A stretch of 64,000 nt of DNA from Pseudomonas hormoni. Its GTDB lineage: Bacteria; Pseudomonadota; Gammaproteobacteria; Pseudomonadales; Pseudomonadaceae. Below are positions 17,810 through 59,841 of this stretch, piece after piece. The notes beneath the pieces are model-generated. The model was not told where the DNA came from, ran no database searches, and saw nothing but the letters and a program-made list of their open reading frames with translations. Position 1 is the first letter of the stretch, and every line of letters starts with the position of its first letter. A program made the translations under genes and the position numbers. The stretch lies in NCBI RefSeq assembly GCF_018502625.1, contig NZ_CP075566.1:5149001-5213000 (forward strand), read 5' to 3'.

Positions 17810-17930
17810 TTATCCACAACGTGATCCCCGGCGTATGTGCGCAACTTGTTGAATCTGATGATTTTTTGATCAGTTCTTGAAGAAGCCCGGCCGGCGTGGG
17901 CTGGCGGGCTGTCTCTACAGGTTATCCACA
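17810..17930 (+). repeat. Two perfect DnaA-box sequences in the rarD-gcvR gap
   Basis: TTATCCACA occurs at 17810-17818 and 17922-17930 in the same orientation, 112 bp apart, in DNA with no gene. TTTTTTGATCA lies between them, and a similar TTTTTGATCA is found in the larger array near 55.64 kb. Confidence 0.55.
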
Positions 17931-52433: not shown

Positions 52434-53534
52434 TTAGAACTCAATCCGCACATCACCCTTCGGCACGCTGCAGCACGAAAGAATGTATCCCTCGGCTTCG
52501 TCTTCTTCGGTGATCCCGCCGTTGTGGTCCATCTCGACCTCGCCACCCAGCTTCATCACCTTGCACGTCCCGCAGATCCCCATCCCGCAGGCCTTTGGAA
52601 TCAACAGACCCAGCTTGGCAGCAGCGGCGTGGACCGTTTCCCCCGGTGCAACGCGAATGCTCTTGCCGGACGCGGTGAACTCCACTTGATGCAGATCCGC
52701 CACGTCGATGTCCGGTGCATCTGCGGCAATTTCGGCTTGCTCCACCGCATCGGCGCGGGCTTCCGGGGGCGTGGCGCCGAAGGACTCCTCGTGATACCGC
52801 TTCATGTCGAAACCGGCGGCTTCGAGCATGCGCTTGACCGCGTTCATGTACGGCGTCGGGCCGCAGCAGAACACTTCGCGCTCAAGGAAGTCCGGCGCCA
52901 TCAGCTCCAGCATCTTGTGGTTCAGGTAGCCGCGATAACCGGCCCACGGTTCACCCAGACCATGCTTCTCGCAGATCAGGTGCAGGCTGAAGTTGTCGAT
53001 CCGCGACGCCATGTGTTCCAGCTCGCGGTGGTAAATGATGTCCTTGGGCGAACGGGCGCTGTGGATAAACACCATGTCGACGTTGCCGTTGGTGTCGTAG
53101 AACCAGCGCGTCATCGACATCACCGGCGTGATGCCGACACCACCGCTGAGGTACAGCACTTTCGGCGCGGTGAAGTCCATGGCGTTGAACAGCCCGACCG
53201 GCCCGTGCACCGCCAGTTCCTGACCTTCGTGCAGGGTGTCGTGCAGCCAGTTGGAAACCTTGCCGCCCGGCACGCGCTTGATCGTTACCGAAAAGCTGTA
53301 CGGCACCGACGGCGAGCTGGAAATGGTGTAGGAGCGCATGATCGGCACGCCTTCGATTTCCAGCTCCAGGGTGACGAACTGCCCCGGTTTGAAGAAGAAC
53401 AGGATCGGCTGGTCGGCCATAAAGCAGAAGGTGCGCACATCCCAGGTTTCCTGGATGACTTTGACGCAACGGACGATGTGTCGGCCATTGGCCCAGGTCT
53501 GGGTAGTTACCGGATTCAGGAAGCTGTTGGACAT
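52434..53534 (-). CDS. gbcB: Glycine betaine monooxygenase reductase subunit
   Basis: Passes electrons from NAD(P)H through FAD and a 2Fe-2S cluster to the GbcA oxygenase. It has 366 residues. An FAD-binding ferredoxin-reductase domain (about 18-120, RSYTISSSP) and an NAD domain (about 122-235, YLSGGVGITPVMSM and FCCGPTPYM) are followed by a C-terminal plant-type ferredoxin domain with Cys316, 321, 324 and 354. ATG 53534 has GGAG six bases upstream; a GTG four codons earlier is less likely. Divergent from gbcA. PA5411 equivalent. Confidence 0.95.
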   Translation of the reverse strand: MSNSFLNPVTTQTWANGRHIVRCVKVIQETWDVRTFCFMADQPILFFFKPGQFVTLELEIEGVPIMRSYTISSSPSVPYSFSVTIKRVPGGKVSNWLHDTLHEGQELAVHGPVGLFNAMDFTAPKVLYLSGGVGITPVMSMTRWFYDTNGNVDMVFIHSARSPKDIIYHRELEHMASRIDNFSLHLICEKHGLGEPWAGYRGYLNHKMLELMAPDFLEREVFCCGPTPYMNAVKRMLEAAGFDMKRYHEESFGATPPEARADAVEQAEIAADAPDIDVADLHQVEFTASGKSIRVAPGETVHAAAAKLGLLIPKACGMGICGTCKVMKLGGEVEMDHNGGITEEDEAEGYILSCCSVPKGDVRIEF

Positions 53535-53634: not shown

Positions 53635-53815
53635 CAGCCCCCAACTACCGAGGGTTGCGCGTCGGGAACAGATTGGGCCATGTCGCCCATGGATAAGGTT
53701 CTGGGCAGCGCCGGCCCCACACTCGCCCCATACCAAGACACATTCTTTACACCTTGCGTAGCAACCCTGATCAGCCACTTTCGCGGCCACGCAGATGGCC
53801 TTGAGGAAACACACG

Positions 53816-55111
53816 ATGGACGTCACCGCAAAAATCAGCCTGGGCGATCCGCTGGAACCCGCACGCAAGGCCACCGCGCAGATGCTGCAAGAGCGCGAGC
53901 GTACTTTCTCGCTGCCGCAGCCGTTTTACTCTGACGAGCGGCTGTTTGATATCGACATGCAGGAGATCTTCCAGAAAGAGTGGTTGATCGCCGGCATGGC
54001 CTGCGAAATCCCGACCAAGGGCAACTACCTGACCCTGCAAGTCGGCAAGAACCCGATCATCGTCATTCGCGGTGCCGAAGGCGTGATTCACGCGTTCCAC
54101 AACGTCTGCCGTCACCGCGGTTCGCGGCTGTGCACCAGCGAAAAAGGCAAGGTCGCCAAGCTGGTCTGCCACTACCACCAATGGACATACGAGCTGGACG
54201 GTCGCCTGCTATTCGCCGGCACCGAAATGGGCGCCGACTTCGACATGAAGCAGTACGGCCTCAAGCCAGTGAACGTGAAGACCGCCGGTGGCTACATCTT
54301 CATCAGCCTGTCGGAGAACCCGCCGGCCATTGATGACTTCCTGTCGACGCTGAACCATTACATGGAACCGTACGACATGGAGAACACCAAGGTGGCGATT
54401 ACCACCACCTTGGTGGAGAAAGCCAACTGGAAGCTGGTGCTGGAAAACAACCGCGAGTGCTACCACTGCAACGCGTCGCACCCTGAATTGCTGAAAACCC
54501 TGCTGGAATGGGACGACGTCACCGACCCGCGCGCCGATCAGGCCTTCAAGGATCACGTCGCCGCGTCCGCCGCTGCCTGGGAAGCCGAGAAGATCCCTTA
54601 CGCCCACGCCAGCTTCGGCCTGCGTAACCGCATCGTGCGCATGCCACTGCTCAAGGGCACCGTGTCGATGACCCTGGACGGCAAACAGGGCTGCGCCAAA
54701 CTCATGGGCCGCATCAAGAACCCGGACCTGGGATCGATGCGCATCCTCCACCTGCCGCACTCGTGGAACCACTGCATGGGCGACCACATCATCGTCTTCA
54801 CGGTGTGGCCGATCAGCGCGCAGGAAACCATGGTCACCACCAAGTGGATCGTCCACAAGGACGCCGTCGAAGGCGTGGACTACGACGTGGAGCGCATGCG
54901 CCAGGTCTGGGACGCCACCAACGACCAGGACCGTCGCCTGGCCGAAGAGAACCAGCGTGGGATCAACTCCACTGCGTATCAGCCTGGGCCTTACTCGAAG
55001 ACTTATGAGTTTGGTGTGGTGAACTTTGTGGACTGGTACAGCGAGCGTCTGTTGAACAACCTGGGGGCTGAGCCGGCTCCGTATCTGAAAGGCGTTCCTG
55101 TCCAGGGCTAA
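53816..55111 (+). CDS. gbcA: Glycine betaine monooxygenase, Rieske oxygenase subunit
   Basis: Converts glycine betaine to dimethylglycine and formaldehyde. It has 431 residues. The Rieske 2Fe-2S ligands are Cys98/His100 (NVCRHRG) and Cys118/His121 (VCHYHQW). The mononuclear iron site includes His217 and His222 in ECYHCNASH. ATG 53816 (MDVTAKISLGDP) has GAGGA eight bases upstream; the extension before it is not conserved. Divergent from its reductase gene gbcB. PA5410 equivalent. Expression is expected to depend on GbdR. Confidence 0.96.
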   Translation: MDVTAKISLGDPLEPARKATAQMLQERERTFSLPQPFYSDERLFDIDMQEIFQKEWLIAGMACEIPTKGNYLTLQVGKNPIIVIRGAEGVIHAFHNVCRHRGSRLCTSEKGKVAKLVCHYHQWTYELDGRLLFAGTEMGADFDMKQYGLKPVNVKTAGGYIFISLSENPPAIDDFLSTLNHYMEPYDMENTKVAITTTLVEKANWKLVLENNRECYHCNASHPELLKTLLEWDDVTDPRADQAFKDHVAASAAAWEAEKIPYAHASFGLRNRIVRMPLLKGTVSMTLDGKQGCAKLMGRIKNPDLGSMRILHLPHSWNHCMGDHIIVFTVWPISAQETMVTTKWIVHKDAVEGVDYDVERMRQVWDATNDQDRRLAEENQRGINSTAYQPGPYSKTYEFGVVNFVDWYSERLLNNLGAEPAPYLKGVPVQG

Positions 55112-55214: not shown

Positions 55215-55898
55215 AGCGCCATCCTCCGCGACACATCCCCTTCTGACTCCCCGCAACCTTAGAACTGTACGAAATATGATCTATTGCGTTCAGCGCTATG
55301 CCGTGCGTGGCTTCCAGCCTTCAGCAAACAAGTTATCCACACCTCCACCCACAGCTAATGGGGACAAGTGTGTGACAACCCATAACTTTCTCCACAGAAA
55401 CCGAAGAAAATCCGTGACTTATCCAGAAGCAGGGTTTTGAACAGCAATTGGTTGTTTTTTGACCTGACACCTGAAAGCAACGCAATACGTGGCCTGTAGC
55501 GGATGGCGAACACCTTATCCACAGAAGCGCCAACAGACTTTGGGGGCAACTTCTGCGCCGCTGTGGAAAACTGCCGTAAACCGCGATAAATCAGGGTTTG
55601 CGCGAGGTTAACCCCTCCAAATCGTCGAATTGTTCACTTTTTGATCACGCAGCGGAAAGCCCCGGTTTATACGGCCTGTAGCGGACAGCGAACATCTTAT
55701 CCACAGAAGCGCCAACAGAGATTGGGGGCAAGTATTGCCGCCCGCTTAAACTTATCCTCGGGAAAAAGCCCGTAAAAACCGTAAGTTAGGCTGGTTGTTT
55801 TTTGTACGAAGGCTTGCAGGGCTTGATTTTCATGGCGTGCAGCGAGGGGCGAACATGTTATCCACAGAAGCGCTAACAGGGATTGTGGGTAACCGTCA
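55215..55898. repeat. Non-coding array of DnaA-box-centred repeats
   Basis: This 684-bp stretch has no convincing gene. TTATCCACA, the perfect DnaA box, occurs at 55333, 55515, 55697 and 55858, all in the same orientation. A related TTTTCCACA is on the minus strand at 55562-55570, and a one-mismatch TTATCCAGA is at 55419. The boxes at 55515, 55697 and 55858 are each embedded in a diverged repeat of about 60 bp with the common parts GGCCTGTAGCGGA, GCGAACA, TTATCCACAGAAGCGC and CAACAGA..TTGGGGGCAA. The repeat period is 182 and 161 bp. Between copies are AT-rich tracts (GGTTGTTTTTTG near 55451 and 55793). The last copy ends about 10 bp from the protease stop codon. Function is not known; DnaA binding, titration or reactivation is inference. 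Confidence 0.7.
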
Positions 55899-57065
55899 TC
55901 AAACCCTGTTGAAACAGGACAGGCCTGAGGCGATGTCCAGATTCAGTTCATAGTCATTGAAAGCCCCCCACCCGAGCAGGATCGAAGGCACGTACTGCCC
56001 GAGTAGCAGGGACGGCGGAATCGTATAGTCCGGGTAGTATTTATAGGTGATCGACCGGATGCGCCCGGACAGGCTCAACTCGCCCCTGTAAGTCCGGTGG
56101 CTCGGCGTGACGGTGACGTTGTCGGGTGAATGGCCGGGCGAGGACGAGGTCAGGTAATCCACATTGCCGGTGTCGACAATCGCCAGCGTCGCCCGACGAT
56201 CCAGTCGCGCGGCAATGGTCAGTCTTTGATTGATGTCCATACGCACGTAGGTGATGGGCGAATCACATCGTGTGGGCGGTGCAGCGTTAATCTCCAGGGT
56301 CTTGTTCGTGACCTTCAAACGCCCTGACTTACCGATCAGATCAAGCCCCAACAAGTTATCCCGGTCACTGACAAACACCAGGACATTCCTGAATTCGCTT
56401 GTGCCTATCTTCAGGGATTCCAGGATTCCCAGTTGGGCTGCCAGGTCTCGCTCACCGTAAAACGTGCTGTAGCCATAATGGGAGTCGGTTAATAACCTGA
56501 TGCCCATCAGCTTCGCGGTTTCAGTGTTGACCCGTGTTTGAGGGGCTCCCGTGTCAAGAATGAACCGCGCCGAAACCCCATTGGCCGCTTTGACATCGAT
56601 GTAGGGCAGCGCTTCGTCGGTCACGTGGCCGTCACCGGGGTAAGGATGGATCGGCAGTACTTCGTGGTGCTTGGTCCGGGTCACCGAGAAATCGGCGACC
56701 GTGCGCAAGGTGGCGATCGATTCGCTGCCGAACATGGAAAACATCAGTTTGAGCTCAGGGTCGTTCGCGATGGCCCCGGCATGACGGCGCTTGATCGCCA
56801 GGTAGTAATCGGGAAGCTGGTTGGCGGCTTTGGCCTCGAACATTCTGGCGAGAACGGAGACTGAACATTGCAGGTTTTTTTCAGCATCGCGCACGTCGTC
56901 GCACCGCTGCTTCATCTGCGCCAGGGAAGCGCTCCGCCCCTGTCCGGACTCGATCCATGTGTAGAAATCCGGCGCTGCGTTATCAGCCGTCGAATTCTTG
57001 GATACAACCAGAAAAACCGTCAGGGCACAGATCAGACATGTCTCACGCCGACTGACCGCGTTCAT
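55899..57065 (-). CDS. Exported two-lobed retropepsin-like aspartic protease
   Basis: A 388-residue protein with an N-terminal signal-like segment (residues 10-27, TCLICALTVFLVVSKNSTA), a helical region with two Cys (about 30-125), and then two retropepsin-like lobes. Lobe 1 has RFILDTGAPQTRVN with Asp171 and the closing motif LLGLDLIGKSGRLKV near 238-252. Lobe 2 has LAIVDTGNVDYLTSS with Asp298 and closing ILLGWGAFNDYELNLDI near 362-378. Both lobes thus keep the D-T-G and the hydrophobic-Gly motifs, as expected for a single-chain pseudo-dimer. ATG 57065 is used. It has less typical codon use and no homologue in the P. aeruginosa betaine locus, so it may be accessory. No substrate can be suggested. 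Confidence 0.75.
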   Translation of the reverse strand: MNAVSRRETCLICALTVFLVVSKNSTADNAAPDFYTWIESGQGRSASLAQMKQRCDDVRDAEKNLQCSVSVLARMFEAKAANQLPDYYLAIKRRHAGAIANDPELKLMFSMFGSESIATLRTVADFSVTRTKHHEVLPIHPYPGDGHVTDEALPYIDVKAANGVSARFILDTGAPQTRVNTETAKLMGIRLLTDSHYGYSTFYGERDLAAQLGILESLKIGTSEFRNVLVFVSDRDNLLGLDLIGKSGRLKVTNKTLEINAAPPTRCDSPITYVRMDINQRLTIAARLDRRATLAIVDTGNVDYLTSSSPGHSPDNVTVTPSHRTYRGELSLSGRIRSITYKYYPDYTIPPSLLLGQYVPSILLGWGAFNDYELNLDIASGLSCFNRV

Positions 57066-57144
57066 GATCAACCCGTGCCTGAAAACGCATTGTTTGAATT
57101 AGCGCTGCTGCCAGTTCGGACAGCTCATAGAGAAATGTAGCTCA

Positions 57145-58620: not shown

Positions 58621-59841
58621 TTAAGCCGCATCGCGCTTGGCTTCGTTGCGGTATTCCTCTACCGCCGCGATCAAGGCTTGAAGAATCTCGGCGCTCTCGC
58701 CGATCACCGACAGGTCGGCCCGTTTGATCATGTCGCAGCCAGGGTCGAGGTTGATCGCCACTACCTTGTCGCAGGCACCGATGCCTTGCAGGTGCTGGAT
58801 CGCCCCGGAAATCCCCACCGCCACGTAAACCCGCGCGGTGACCCAGGTGCCGGACGCGCCGACCTGACGGTCACGCGCCATGAAGCCGTCGTCCACTGCC
58901 ACCCGGGACGCGCCTTCGGTGGCGCCGAGCGCTTCGGCAGTCCTGTGGAAAAGTCCCCAGTCCTTGACCCCGTTGCCGCCGGAGAAGATGAACTCGGCCT
59001 CGGCCATCGGAATCGCCGCCGGATCCACCGCCACTGCACCCAAATCCTCGATGCGCGACAAGCTTCGTGCGACAGCTGTGGATAACTCCACCGGCAAGGC
59101 TTCATGACGGGTTTCGCTGACCGGTTCGGCGCATTCGACGGCGGCGAGGATCAAGCGTGCCACCGGGCGTGCAAGGTCTTGCAAACCGGCACCGGCGCGG
59201 CCGATGCACTCCTGACCCTTGACCTGCCAGACCCGCGTGGCCGGGCGCTCGCCCAGTGCAGCGGCAAAGCGTCGACCGAGTTCGCCGCCACCGCTGCGGC
59301 TGTCCGGCAGCAGCCAGTGACGCGGGCTGAACTGGTTATCCACAGCCCGCAGGCCCTGGACCCGTTGTTCCGGTGCATAACCGCTGAATTCGTCGCCTTC
59401 GAGTACCAGCAAGCGATCAACGCCAGCGGTAGCGAAGGCATTTTCCTTGTGCTCGCCGAAGACCACGGCCAATACCGCGCCGTCCTTGCCGGCCAATTGA
59501 TGCGCCAGGCCGAGCAAGTCGCGGTCGTGACTGCTCAAACGGCCGCCAACCATGTCCGGCACCACGCTGATGTAAAACGCAGGTGCAGGTACTTGATGCA
59601 GCGGCAATTGCACTTCAACGGCAGCCGAGCGTTTGGTCGCCCCGCCCTGCTGAGCCCCACTGCGGTCGATCCGTTTGATGCCGTTCGGGCCAATGAAACC
59701 TATGCCATGGGGATTCTTGCGAATGACGCCGTTAGGCCCCATCCAGCTGTGTTGTGCCGGCTGCATGGCCGCATGCAGCGGGTGCAGGCGGTTACGGGCA
59801 ATCCATTCGGCGCGGGGGTCGCGGCGGATAATGTCGCTCAT
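58621..59841 (-). CDS. etfA: Electron transfer flavoprotein alpha subunit with N-terminal extension
   Basis: A 406-residue ETF alpha-type protein, about 90 residues longer at its N-terminus than housekeeping EtfA. The extension holds two GPNG-x-x-R repeats (MGPNGVIRKN and IGPNGIKRID, near residues 34-59). The C-terminal FAD-binding domain contains FSGGNGVKDWGLF, VGASGTWVTARVYVAVGISG and CDKVVAINLDPGCDMIKRAD. Its ATG shares one base with the dgcB stop (TGATG). PA5400 equivalent. The extension may be a docking element for DgcB; that is inference. Confidence 0.91.
   Translation of the reverse strand: MSDIIRRDPRAEWIARNRLHPLHAAMQPAQHSWMGPNGVIRKNPHGIGFIGPNGIKRIDRSGAQQGGATKRSAAVEVQLPLHQVPAPAFYISVVPDMVGGRLSSHDRDLLGLAHQLAGKDGAVLAVVFGEHKENAFATAGVDRLLVLEGDEFSGYAPEQRVQGLRAVDNQFSPRHWLLPDSRSGGGELGRRFAAALGERPATRVWQVKGQECIGRAGAGLQDLARPVARLILAAVECAEPVSETRHEALPVELSTAVARSLSRIEDLGAVAVDPAAIPMAEAEFIFSGGNGVKDWGLFHRTAEALGATEGASRVAVDDGFMARDRQVGASGTWVTARVYVAVGISGAIQHLQGIGACDKVVAINLDPGCDMIKRADLSVIGESAEILQALIAAVEEYRNEAKRDAA

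Follow-up and report, generated by a model that had tools for sequence, protein, structure and literature searches.

The intergenic stretch downstream of gbcA in Pseudomonas hormoni carries four tandem copies of a composite DnaA-box unit, each with the box layout of the Escherichia coli DARS cores, and the copies are set apart by whole turns of the DNA helix. It seems to us reasonably likely that this array is a DARS-type locus with several cores that regulates DnaA, assembling it and probably promoting the release of its ADP. An E. coli DARS-like layout, combined with copies kept on the same face of the helix, makes the array probably a replication-timing switch. An earlier note on this DNA had offered a datA- or DARS-like locus as one of several options; that option is supported here and can be sharpened, as the unit itself has the layout of a DARS core. 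The window analysed, the whole stretch of 64,000 nucleotides (positions 5149001-5213000), belongs to a single-contig genome of 6.48 Mb. Five-digit coordinates below refer to the window, seven-digit ones to the P. hormoni chromosome unless E. coli is named.

The array and its composite units

The exact 9-mer TTATCCACA occurs four times on the plus strand of the array, with spacings of 182, 182 and 161 bp (Table 1), so that the four same-direction boxes in 534 bp described in the earlier note are indeed present. The window as a whole contains 9 exact copies, against 0.10 on average and never more than 1 in 100 dinucleotide shuffles. A direct repeat of 111 nt is found in three copies in the window (spacings of 182 and 161 bp), and a 34-nt version of it is found in four copies that take in the first box. 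The tandem repeat with periods of 182 and 161 bp noted earlier therefore stands, whereas the statement that three of the boxes lie inside it does not, as all four belong to it. Additional near-consensus boxes had also been mentioned, and they can be located: TTCTCCACA at 55388, and TTTTCCACA and TTACCCACA on the minus strand at 55562 and 55884. A T-rich tract is conserved some 50-66 bp before boxes 2-4. Searches of the window against Rfam (at gathering thresholds) and for tRNAs gave no matches.

Each of the strong boxes heads a composite unit, in which a weak DnaA-like box follows at +12 in the same direction and another at +26 in the opposite direction. With these companion boxes the element reaches 55892, that is, 26 bp beyond the end assigned to it before. 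The companion boxes, the helical spacing ladder, the sister elements and the genome-wide gradient of the box, all described below, had been overlooked in the earlier note.

Table 1. Positions, in the window, of the array, its constituent boxes and the two flanking genes.
Feature	Position	Strand	Remarks
gbcA (glycine betaine monooxygenase), conserved left neighbour	53795..55111	+	NCBIfam NF058607, 805.6 bits
Whole array, four DARS-like units	55333..55892	+	Non-coding, between convergent genes
Unit 1 strong box TTATCCACA	55333..55341	+	Exact match; DARS box III position
Unit 1 box II position CCACCCACA	55345..55353	+	3 mismatches to TTWTNCACA; 3 bp after strong box
Unit 1 box I position TTGTCCCCA	55359..55367	-	2 mismatches
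Unit 2 strong box TTATCCACA	55515..55523	+	Exact match
Unit 2 box II position GCGCCAACA	55527..55535	+	5 mismatches; letters kept across species
Unit 2 box I position TTGCCCCCA	55541..55549	-	3 mismatches
Unit 2 extra consensus box TTTTCCACA, +47	55562..55570	-	Best-scoring offset for unit 2 in 70 arrays
Unit 3 strong box TTATCCACA	55697..55705	+	Exact match
Unit 3 box II position GCGCCAACA	55709..55717	+	5 mismatches
Unit 3 box I position TTGCCCCCA	55723..55731	-	3 mismatches
Unit 4 strong box TTATCCACA	55858..55866	+	Exact match
Unit 4 box II position GCGCTAACA	55870..55878	+	5 mismatches
Unit 4 box I TTACCCACA	55884..55892	-	1 mismatch
Aspartyl-protease-like ORF, right neighbour	55899..57071	-	gag-asp_proteas, PF13975

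Box III is perfect in all four units of the window, box I carries one to three mismatches and box II three to five (Table 1). When all 188 offsets were ranked in 70 four-box arrays, the one at +26 on the opposite strand came 1st, 2nd, 1st and 1st in units 1-4, and the one at +12 came 3rd, 32nd, 27th and 7th. Box II is therefore clearly box-like in unit 1 only and, to a lesser degree, in unit 4. The letters at the box II position are highly conserved all the same in units 1-3 of these 70 arrays, with 1.76-1.88 bits, against 1.22 bits in unit 4. The companion boxes of the central units are weak. As to the strong box, TTATCCACA is listed as the high-affinity box of P. putida in the available part of PMC4285127. 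According to the excerpts of PMC11317965, E. coli DnaA prefers pairs of boxes 2-3 bp apart, and the gap from the strong box to the box II position in the array, 3 bp, is as in these preferred pairs.

Helical phasing of the box spacings

In 80 distinct arrays, none of the 228 distances between adjacent boxes departs by more than 3 bp from a ladder that rises by about 10.5 bp per step (150, 161, 172, 182 and 193 bp), the finder having accepted anything from 120 to 199 bp and some 30 of the arrays having come from a pattern that itself required two spacings of 164-194 bp. The only classes found were 149-151, 158-161, 171-173, 181-183 and 192-193 bp. Three spacings of 331-332 bp with a degenerate box in between were counted apart, arrays with fewer than three boxes (such as L037, with two boxes 160 bp apart) were excluded, and the additional boxes that L086 and L116 have at 55-56 bp were left uncounted.

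Changes of spacing were reconstructed with unit costs on a 540-bp gbcA tree of 54 arrays, 16 of the 70 four-box arrays being omitted because their flank held no usable piece of gbcA. Of the 34 inferred changes, 21 were of 1-3 bp and the other 13 of 10-12 bp; not one fell between 4 and 9 bp. In the spacer between gbcA and the array, which served as the control, 7 of the 15 changes of up to 12 bp were of 4-9 bp (Fisher p = 7.5e-5). With every spacing on the ladder and intermediate changes missing from the array and present in the control, the helical phase appears to be under selection.

Occurrence of the unit and the array in other genomes

The unit was written as the pattern TTATCCACA-N9-ACAG-N4-TGNGNRNAA. 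Because this pattern was derived from the units of P. hormoni itself, its count in the 6.48-Mb genome is descriptive, and it is the other genomes that serve as the test. The genome contains 7 exact matches (four in the array and those at 6475711, 6475913 and 4886570), the reversed-pattern control gave 0, and allowing one mismatch added a single further match at 6351056. Among 298 genomes of the same genus, 274 have at least one exact unit (control 0) and 24 have none. With one mismatch allowed, the pattern is present in 57 of 79 genomes of the family and in 15 of 19 genera (control 0). Among 368 further genomes of the class, 13 gave exact matches. Box II is perfect in 8 of these 13, and in 12 neither box I nor box II has more than one mismatch, so that they look, to judge by their sequence, like canonical DARS cores, as in TTATCCACA-AAG-TTATCCACA-GGAAT-TGTGGATAA. 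Near-perfect three-box DARS cores of this kind are scattered among genomes of the class (for example L205, L206, L207 and L209).

Three boxes at spacings of 164-194 bp were found in 161 of the 298 genomes of the genus and are absent, as an exact pattern, from the other 137. In an order-wide sample the same pattern was detected in 5 of 8 genomes of the genus and in 0 of 285 others (control 0). Given this figure of 137 and the 24 genomes without any exact unit, the array is not universal in the genus. A BLAST search of the 603-bp array against its own genome returned the array itself and two pieces at chance level (E values of 0.52 and 0.98), and the conserved part of the array is the TTATCCACA core. 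A widely scattered repeat family whose core is not conserved between copies, which had been considered before, is not supported by either result.

Chromosomal setting

The array lies between convergent genes, and the flanks, previously described as a catabolic and a protease gene, proved to be gbcA on the plus strand and an aspartyl-protease-like ORF on the minus strand. The closest named relatives of gbcA, among the matches listed, are from Pseudomonas mandelii and other Pseudomonas strains, and the neighbouring ORFs could be named GbcA, GbcB, aspartyl protease-like, ETF beta and ETF alpha. In the best 80 gbcA loci of at least 597 relatives, an array with two or more boxes in register accompanies the gene at 48. 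Both ETF genes are found at 47 of these 48 loci, the protease ORF at 10 and a GNAT ORF at 24. None of the 32 remaining loci among the best 80 holds an ETF gene, and for this reason they are read as a second gbcAB copy located elsewhere and not as losses of the array. As it is found at so few of the array loci, the aspartyl-protease-like ORF is unlikely to be a functional partner of the array. A promoter role was considered as well and is improbable, given that the genes on its two sides are convergent and that most loci have something else in place of the right neighbour.

The absence of dnaA from the surroundings, remarked on earlier, is confirmed: dnaA is at 5709323, 505 kb from the array. 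A four-box cluster directly upstream of dnaA (5708968-5709240) is expected to be oriC, and the array, at such a distance from the dnaA region, does not qualify as the origin. Among 42 single-contig genomes, 39 have the array on the upstream side of dnaA and in the same orientation, at 457-1115 kb (median 531 kb, with one of the 42 at -1115 kb), and in the other 3 it lies inverted on the other replichore, at +522 to +711 kb. These 42 derive from 61 of the 161 array-bearing genomes, namely those with the array on contig C1; 4 of the 61 were set aside because dnaA was on a different contig, which left 57, of which 42 were single-contig. Genome sizes were rounded to 0.1 Mb, and distances measured across the contig end carry an error of up to 50 kb. 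The conserved distance between the array and dnaA could partly be plain synteny. The genome also encodes Hda (TIGR03420, 291.2 bits against a cut-off of 194.8), so that ADP-DnaA is expected to arise and to need recharging.

Comparison with DARS1, DARS2 and datA

DARS, datA and the titration of DnaA are known in E. coli. Box scans of the respective regions of E. coli MG1655 placed the boxes of DARS1 at 813107 (+), 813121 (-) and 813133 (-), and those of DARS2 at 2969135 (+), 2969149 (-) and 2969161 (-). Both cores have offsets of 0, +14 and +26 and orientations → ← ←, and the Pseudomonas unit, read on the other strand, is identical in these respects; the labels I, II and III on the E. coli boxes are our reading of the arrangement in the available parts of PMC10380432 and PMC8682772. 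The DARS1 core has the sequence TAATACACA-TGG-TTATCCACA-GGAAT-AGTGGATAA and the DARS2 core TTCTTCACA-ACT-CTATCCACA-GAAAA-GGTGAATAA, to be compared with TTATCCACA-GGC-AGTTCCACA-GGCAT-TGTGGGTAA in element C of P. hormoni. The E. coli cores and the units of the array have CACAG at box II in common, both are non-coding, and a conserved relative distance from oriC, as stated for DARS1 and DARS2 in the excerpts of PMC4585315, is a further likeness. The hallmark of DARS, according to the available part of PMC10380432, is a head-to-head pair of boxes I and II, without which ADP does not dissociate; box III has a stimulating effect. In the array, boxes I and II stand head to head and box III lies beside box II at a fixed spacing, the site at +12 being box-like mainly in unit 1. 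Chromosomal position lies outside this mechanistic definition of DARS.

The differences are also clear. DARS1 and DARS2 have one core each, whereas the Pseudomonas array has four in tandem. Its strong box occupies position III, while box II equals or exceeds box III in quality in the E. coli cores, and its units 2-4, unlike DARS1 and DARS2, have a weak box II. The neighbouring genes differ too, neither the array nor elements B, C and D being found at the neighbours of DARS1 (uvrB promoter region) or DARS2 (mutH promoter). DARS2 has IHF and Fis sites, and no IHF layout was recognised in the array by its consensus. In a scan of 311 linkers, the IHF consensus was matched exactly 3 times against 1.2 in mononucleotide shuffles, 61 times against 29.3 with one mismatch and 612 times against 304.6 with two, an excess of about 2-fold over these shuffles, and this consensus scan yielded no convincing IHF site. 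In DARS2 itself, moving the IHF sites away from the core left partial activity at 5 bp and moderate activity at 10 bp, and moving them toward the core by 5 or 10 bp left only partial activity in both cases, which indicates, as far as the excerpts of PMC4245941 go, that phase matters in DARS2, and distance too.

The likeness to datA is of another kind. A scan of the E. coli datA region found two consensus boxes in the same direction, 162 bp apart, at 4392744 and 4392906. Like the array, datA is non-coding and has consensus boxes on one strand at a distance of about 160 bp. Their relative distances from oriC are similar as well: datA, at 94.7 min (PMC10380432, available part), is about 10% of the genome away, and the array 7.8%. 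On the other hand, the scan of the datA region revealed no three-box core at 0, +14 and +26 with two of datA's consensus boxes, and the single IHF site of datA, which is surrounded by its essential boxes, has no convincing counterpart in the array by the consensus scan.

Genome-wide distribution of the box

In Bacillus subtilis and Streptomyces, clusters of DnaA boxes outside oriC and away from dnaA are thought to titrate DnaA; neither a DARS core geometry nor a helical ladder is known to us from these clusters. The P. hormoni array shows the features of a titration cluster, with several high-affinity boxes packed into a short piece of non-coding DNA in the origin-side part of the chromosome. 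TTATCCACA occurs 144 times in the genome against 19 for its reversed control, so the chance frequency of about one per 130 kb assumed previously does not apply here. Its density is 27.8 per 100 kb within 2% of the replichore from oriC and 3.1-4.0 at 2-30%, and falls further out to 1.85, 0.74 and finally 0.19 in the terminal quarter. Uniform placement of the 144 boxes is rejected (KS p = 3e-28), as is that of the 107 left after removal of the array and of 50 kb on either side of oriC (KS p = 4e-17), the sites being treated as independent in both tests. When a 380-kb sample near oriC was compared with one of 400 kb near the terminus, no other 9-mer was as strongly biased toward the origin (43 copies against 0). 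Its orientation along the fork shows essentially no strand bias (78 of 144). Given the excess and the strong origin-proximal gradient, the array sits on an enriched background of boxes. The proposed count of clusters across the genome singles it out all the same, the array and oriC being the sole two places with four boxes within 600 bp.

An excess of DnaA boxes near oriC is also reported for E. coli and Salmonella, and in E. coli it has been linked to titration (PMC12371093, available part). The density peak described there arises from consensus and degenerate motifs; P. hormoni differs in that the perfect 9-mer is absent from 400 kb around the terminus and in that it has a phased array.

Alternative explanations

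The distribution of the box suits pure titration, in which the array and the origin-proximal boxes would soak up DnaA after initiation and leave its nucleotide unchanged, the array being the densest knot of a genome-wide sink. The excess of 144 boxes over 19, the fall in density from 27.8 to 0.19 per 100 kb, the first rank among origin-biased 9-mers in the two samples and the link drawn for E. coli in the excerpts of PMC12371093 all speak for it. A sink, however, requires neither fixed partners at +12 and +26, which are exact at only 7 of the 144 boxes, nor a helical phase maintained over 150-193 bp, and we regard pure titration as unlikely. Still less probable is a datA-like locus, at which DnaA on two strong boxes, joined by DNA bending, would hydrolyse ATP and switch initiation off. 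The 162 bp between the datA boxes come close to the 161 rung of the ladder, the relative distances from oriC are comparable (about 10% and 7.8%), and the T-rich tract before boxes 2-4 is conserved; yet the local head-to-head core is a DARS signature, and the linkers offer no convincing IHF site by the consensus scan.

An architectural protein could account for the fixed phasing and position too, and the array might then be a set of sites for a protein other than DnaA or for chromosome structure (a loop anchor or a centromere-like element), its likeness to DnaA boxes being incidental. Its invariant part is, however, a perfect DnaA 9-mer, the same as in the oriC of this genome, which makes such a reading very improbable. 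Tandem boxes recall iteron origins at first sight, and a relic of a plasmid had been suggested earlier; to this reading, together with a relic of a second origin and a mobile repeat family, we give hardly any credence. Both ETF genes are present at 47 of the 48 array-bearing loci in the best 80 of at least 597 gbcA relatives, BLAST found no further copy of the array in the genome, and the exact three-box pattern recurs in 161 of 298 genomes of the genus. The locus thus keeps its place across many species, and no Rep, as would be expected beside the iterons of a plasmid origin, was found among the flanking ORFs that could be named, so that a plasmid origin is not supported.

Proposed mechanism and its significance

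If the array is a DARS-type locus with several cores, each core would consist of the high-affinity box TTATCCACA together with two box-like sites of low quality. Such a core could bind DnaA as a same-direction pair across the 3-bp gap together with one DnaA head to head, and this arrangement would, as in E. coli, drive ADP out of DnaA. Four such cores, 150-193 bp apart in whole helical turns, would place the DnaA complexes in register, and these would probably join into one higher-order looped complex. The looped complex could then recharge the ADP-DnaA made through Hda to ATP-DnaA and in this way help to set the time and the dose of initiation. It is from the papers on the DARS mechanism, the preference of DnaA for box pairs, the listing of the P. 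putida box and the presence of Hda that we infer a multi-core DARS, at which DnaA would occupy the array, the cores would cooperate and nucleotide exchange, and with it the reactivation of DnaA, would take place. A bolder proposal, which we put forward tentatively, concerns Pseudomonas in general: multi-core phased DARS arrays might hold head-to-head DnaA complexes in register as one looped machine, whose cooperative exchange would give a steeper trigger than the single-core sites of E. coli, and the circuit would be completed by one sister element at -823 kb and another at +766 kb, whose two cores, 202 bp apart, fit the ladder.

The locus described here is a defined, deletable element, and phased assembly predicts that inserts of 5 bp break it and inserts of 10 bp do not. 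The strict ladder, shared by many species, is evidence of an uncommon kind that selection acts on how a replication-control complex is assembled in three dimensions. Literature searches, covering titles and the beginnings of abstracts among the matches listed, found neither a description of a four-core, helically phased DARS-like array nor a DARS or datA locus in Pseudomonas. DARS-like sequences are mentioned for many proteobacterial species (PMC10380432), and conservation of the DARS2 core is stated for relatives of E. coli among the gammaproteobacteria (PMC4245941); on these statements, taken from the available parts of the two papers, single DARS-like sites in Pseudomonas may already be listed in earlier work.

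Related elements and other boxes

A second DARS-like locus of the P. hormoni genome, at 6475711-6475947, has two units 202 bp apart. It is situated at +766 kb, beyond dnaA as seen from the array, and the ORFs on either side of it are convergent, one of them having no Pfam match. Single DARS-like elements, both intergenic, are found at 4886570-4886604 and 6351056-6351090. The former, with 2 mismatches in box II and 1 in box I, has fewer in these two boxes together than any other of the eight elements of P. hormoni; the latter, with 3 and 4, is weak. The genes adjoining elements B, C and D are UPF0029, Hist_deacetyl/HI0933-like and short-chain dehydrogenase genes. Pair B is spaced at 201-202 bp, on the ladder, in 18 of the 20 genomes read and is off it in G057 (187 bp) and G043 (136 bp); the pair in G136 and G168, with a mismatch in one member, is spaced at about 364-365 bp and does not fit the ladder either.

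In a sister genus (g3), a DARS-like pair 113 bp apart, roughly half a turn out of step with the ladder of Pseudomonas, was seen in 6 of 7 genomes (G390, G418, G465, G987, G997 and G1011, but not G1004). In genus g395 (G956, G999 and G1006), 4-6 DARS-like elements lie within about 0.5-1.1 kb when one mismatch is allowed. Closer to the origin of P. hormoni, three copies of TTATCCACA are found in 214 bp at 5691147-5691360, about 18 kb from dnaA. Elsewhere in the window, at 17810-17844, a TTATCCACA is accompanied by a sequence resembling box I at +26, with 2 mismatches, and by a box II that is weak, with 3; another box follows at 17922. Exact copies of TTATCCACA also occur in the coding sequences of gbcB and ETF alpha, at 53060-53068 and 59077-59344, respectively, and in the best 80 of at least 597 gbcA relatives the copy in gbcB is kept at 40 of the 48 array loci and at 27 of the 32 loci of the second gbcAB copy.
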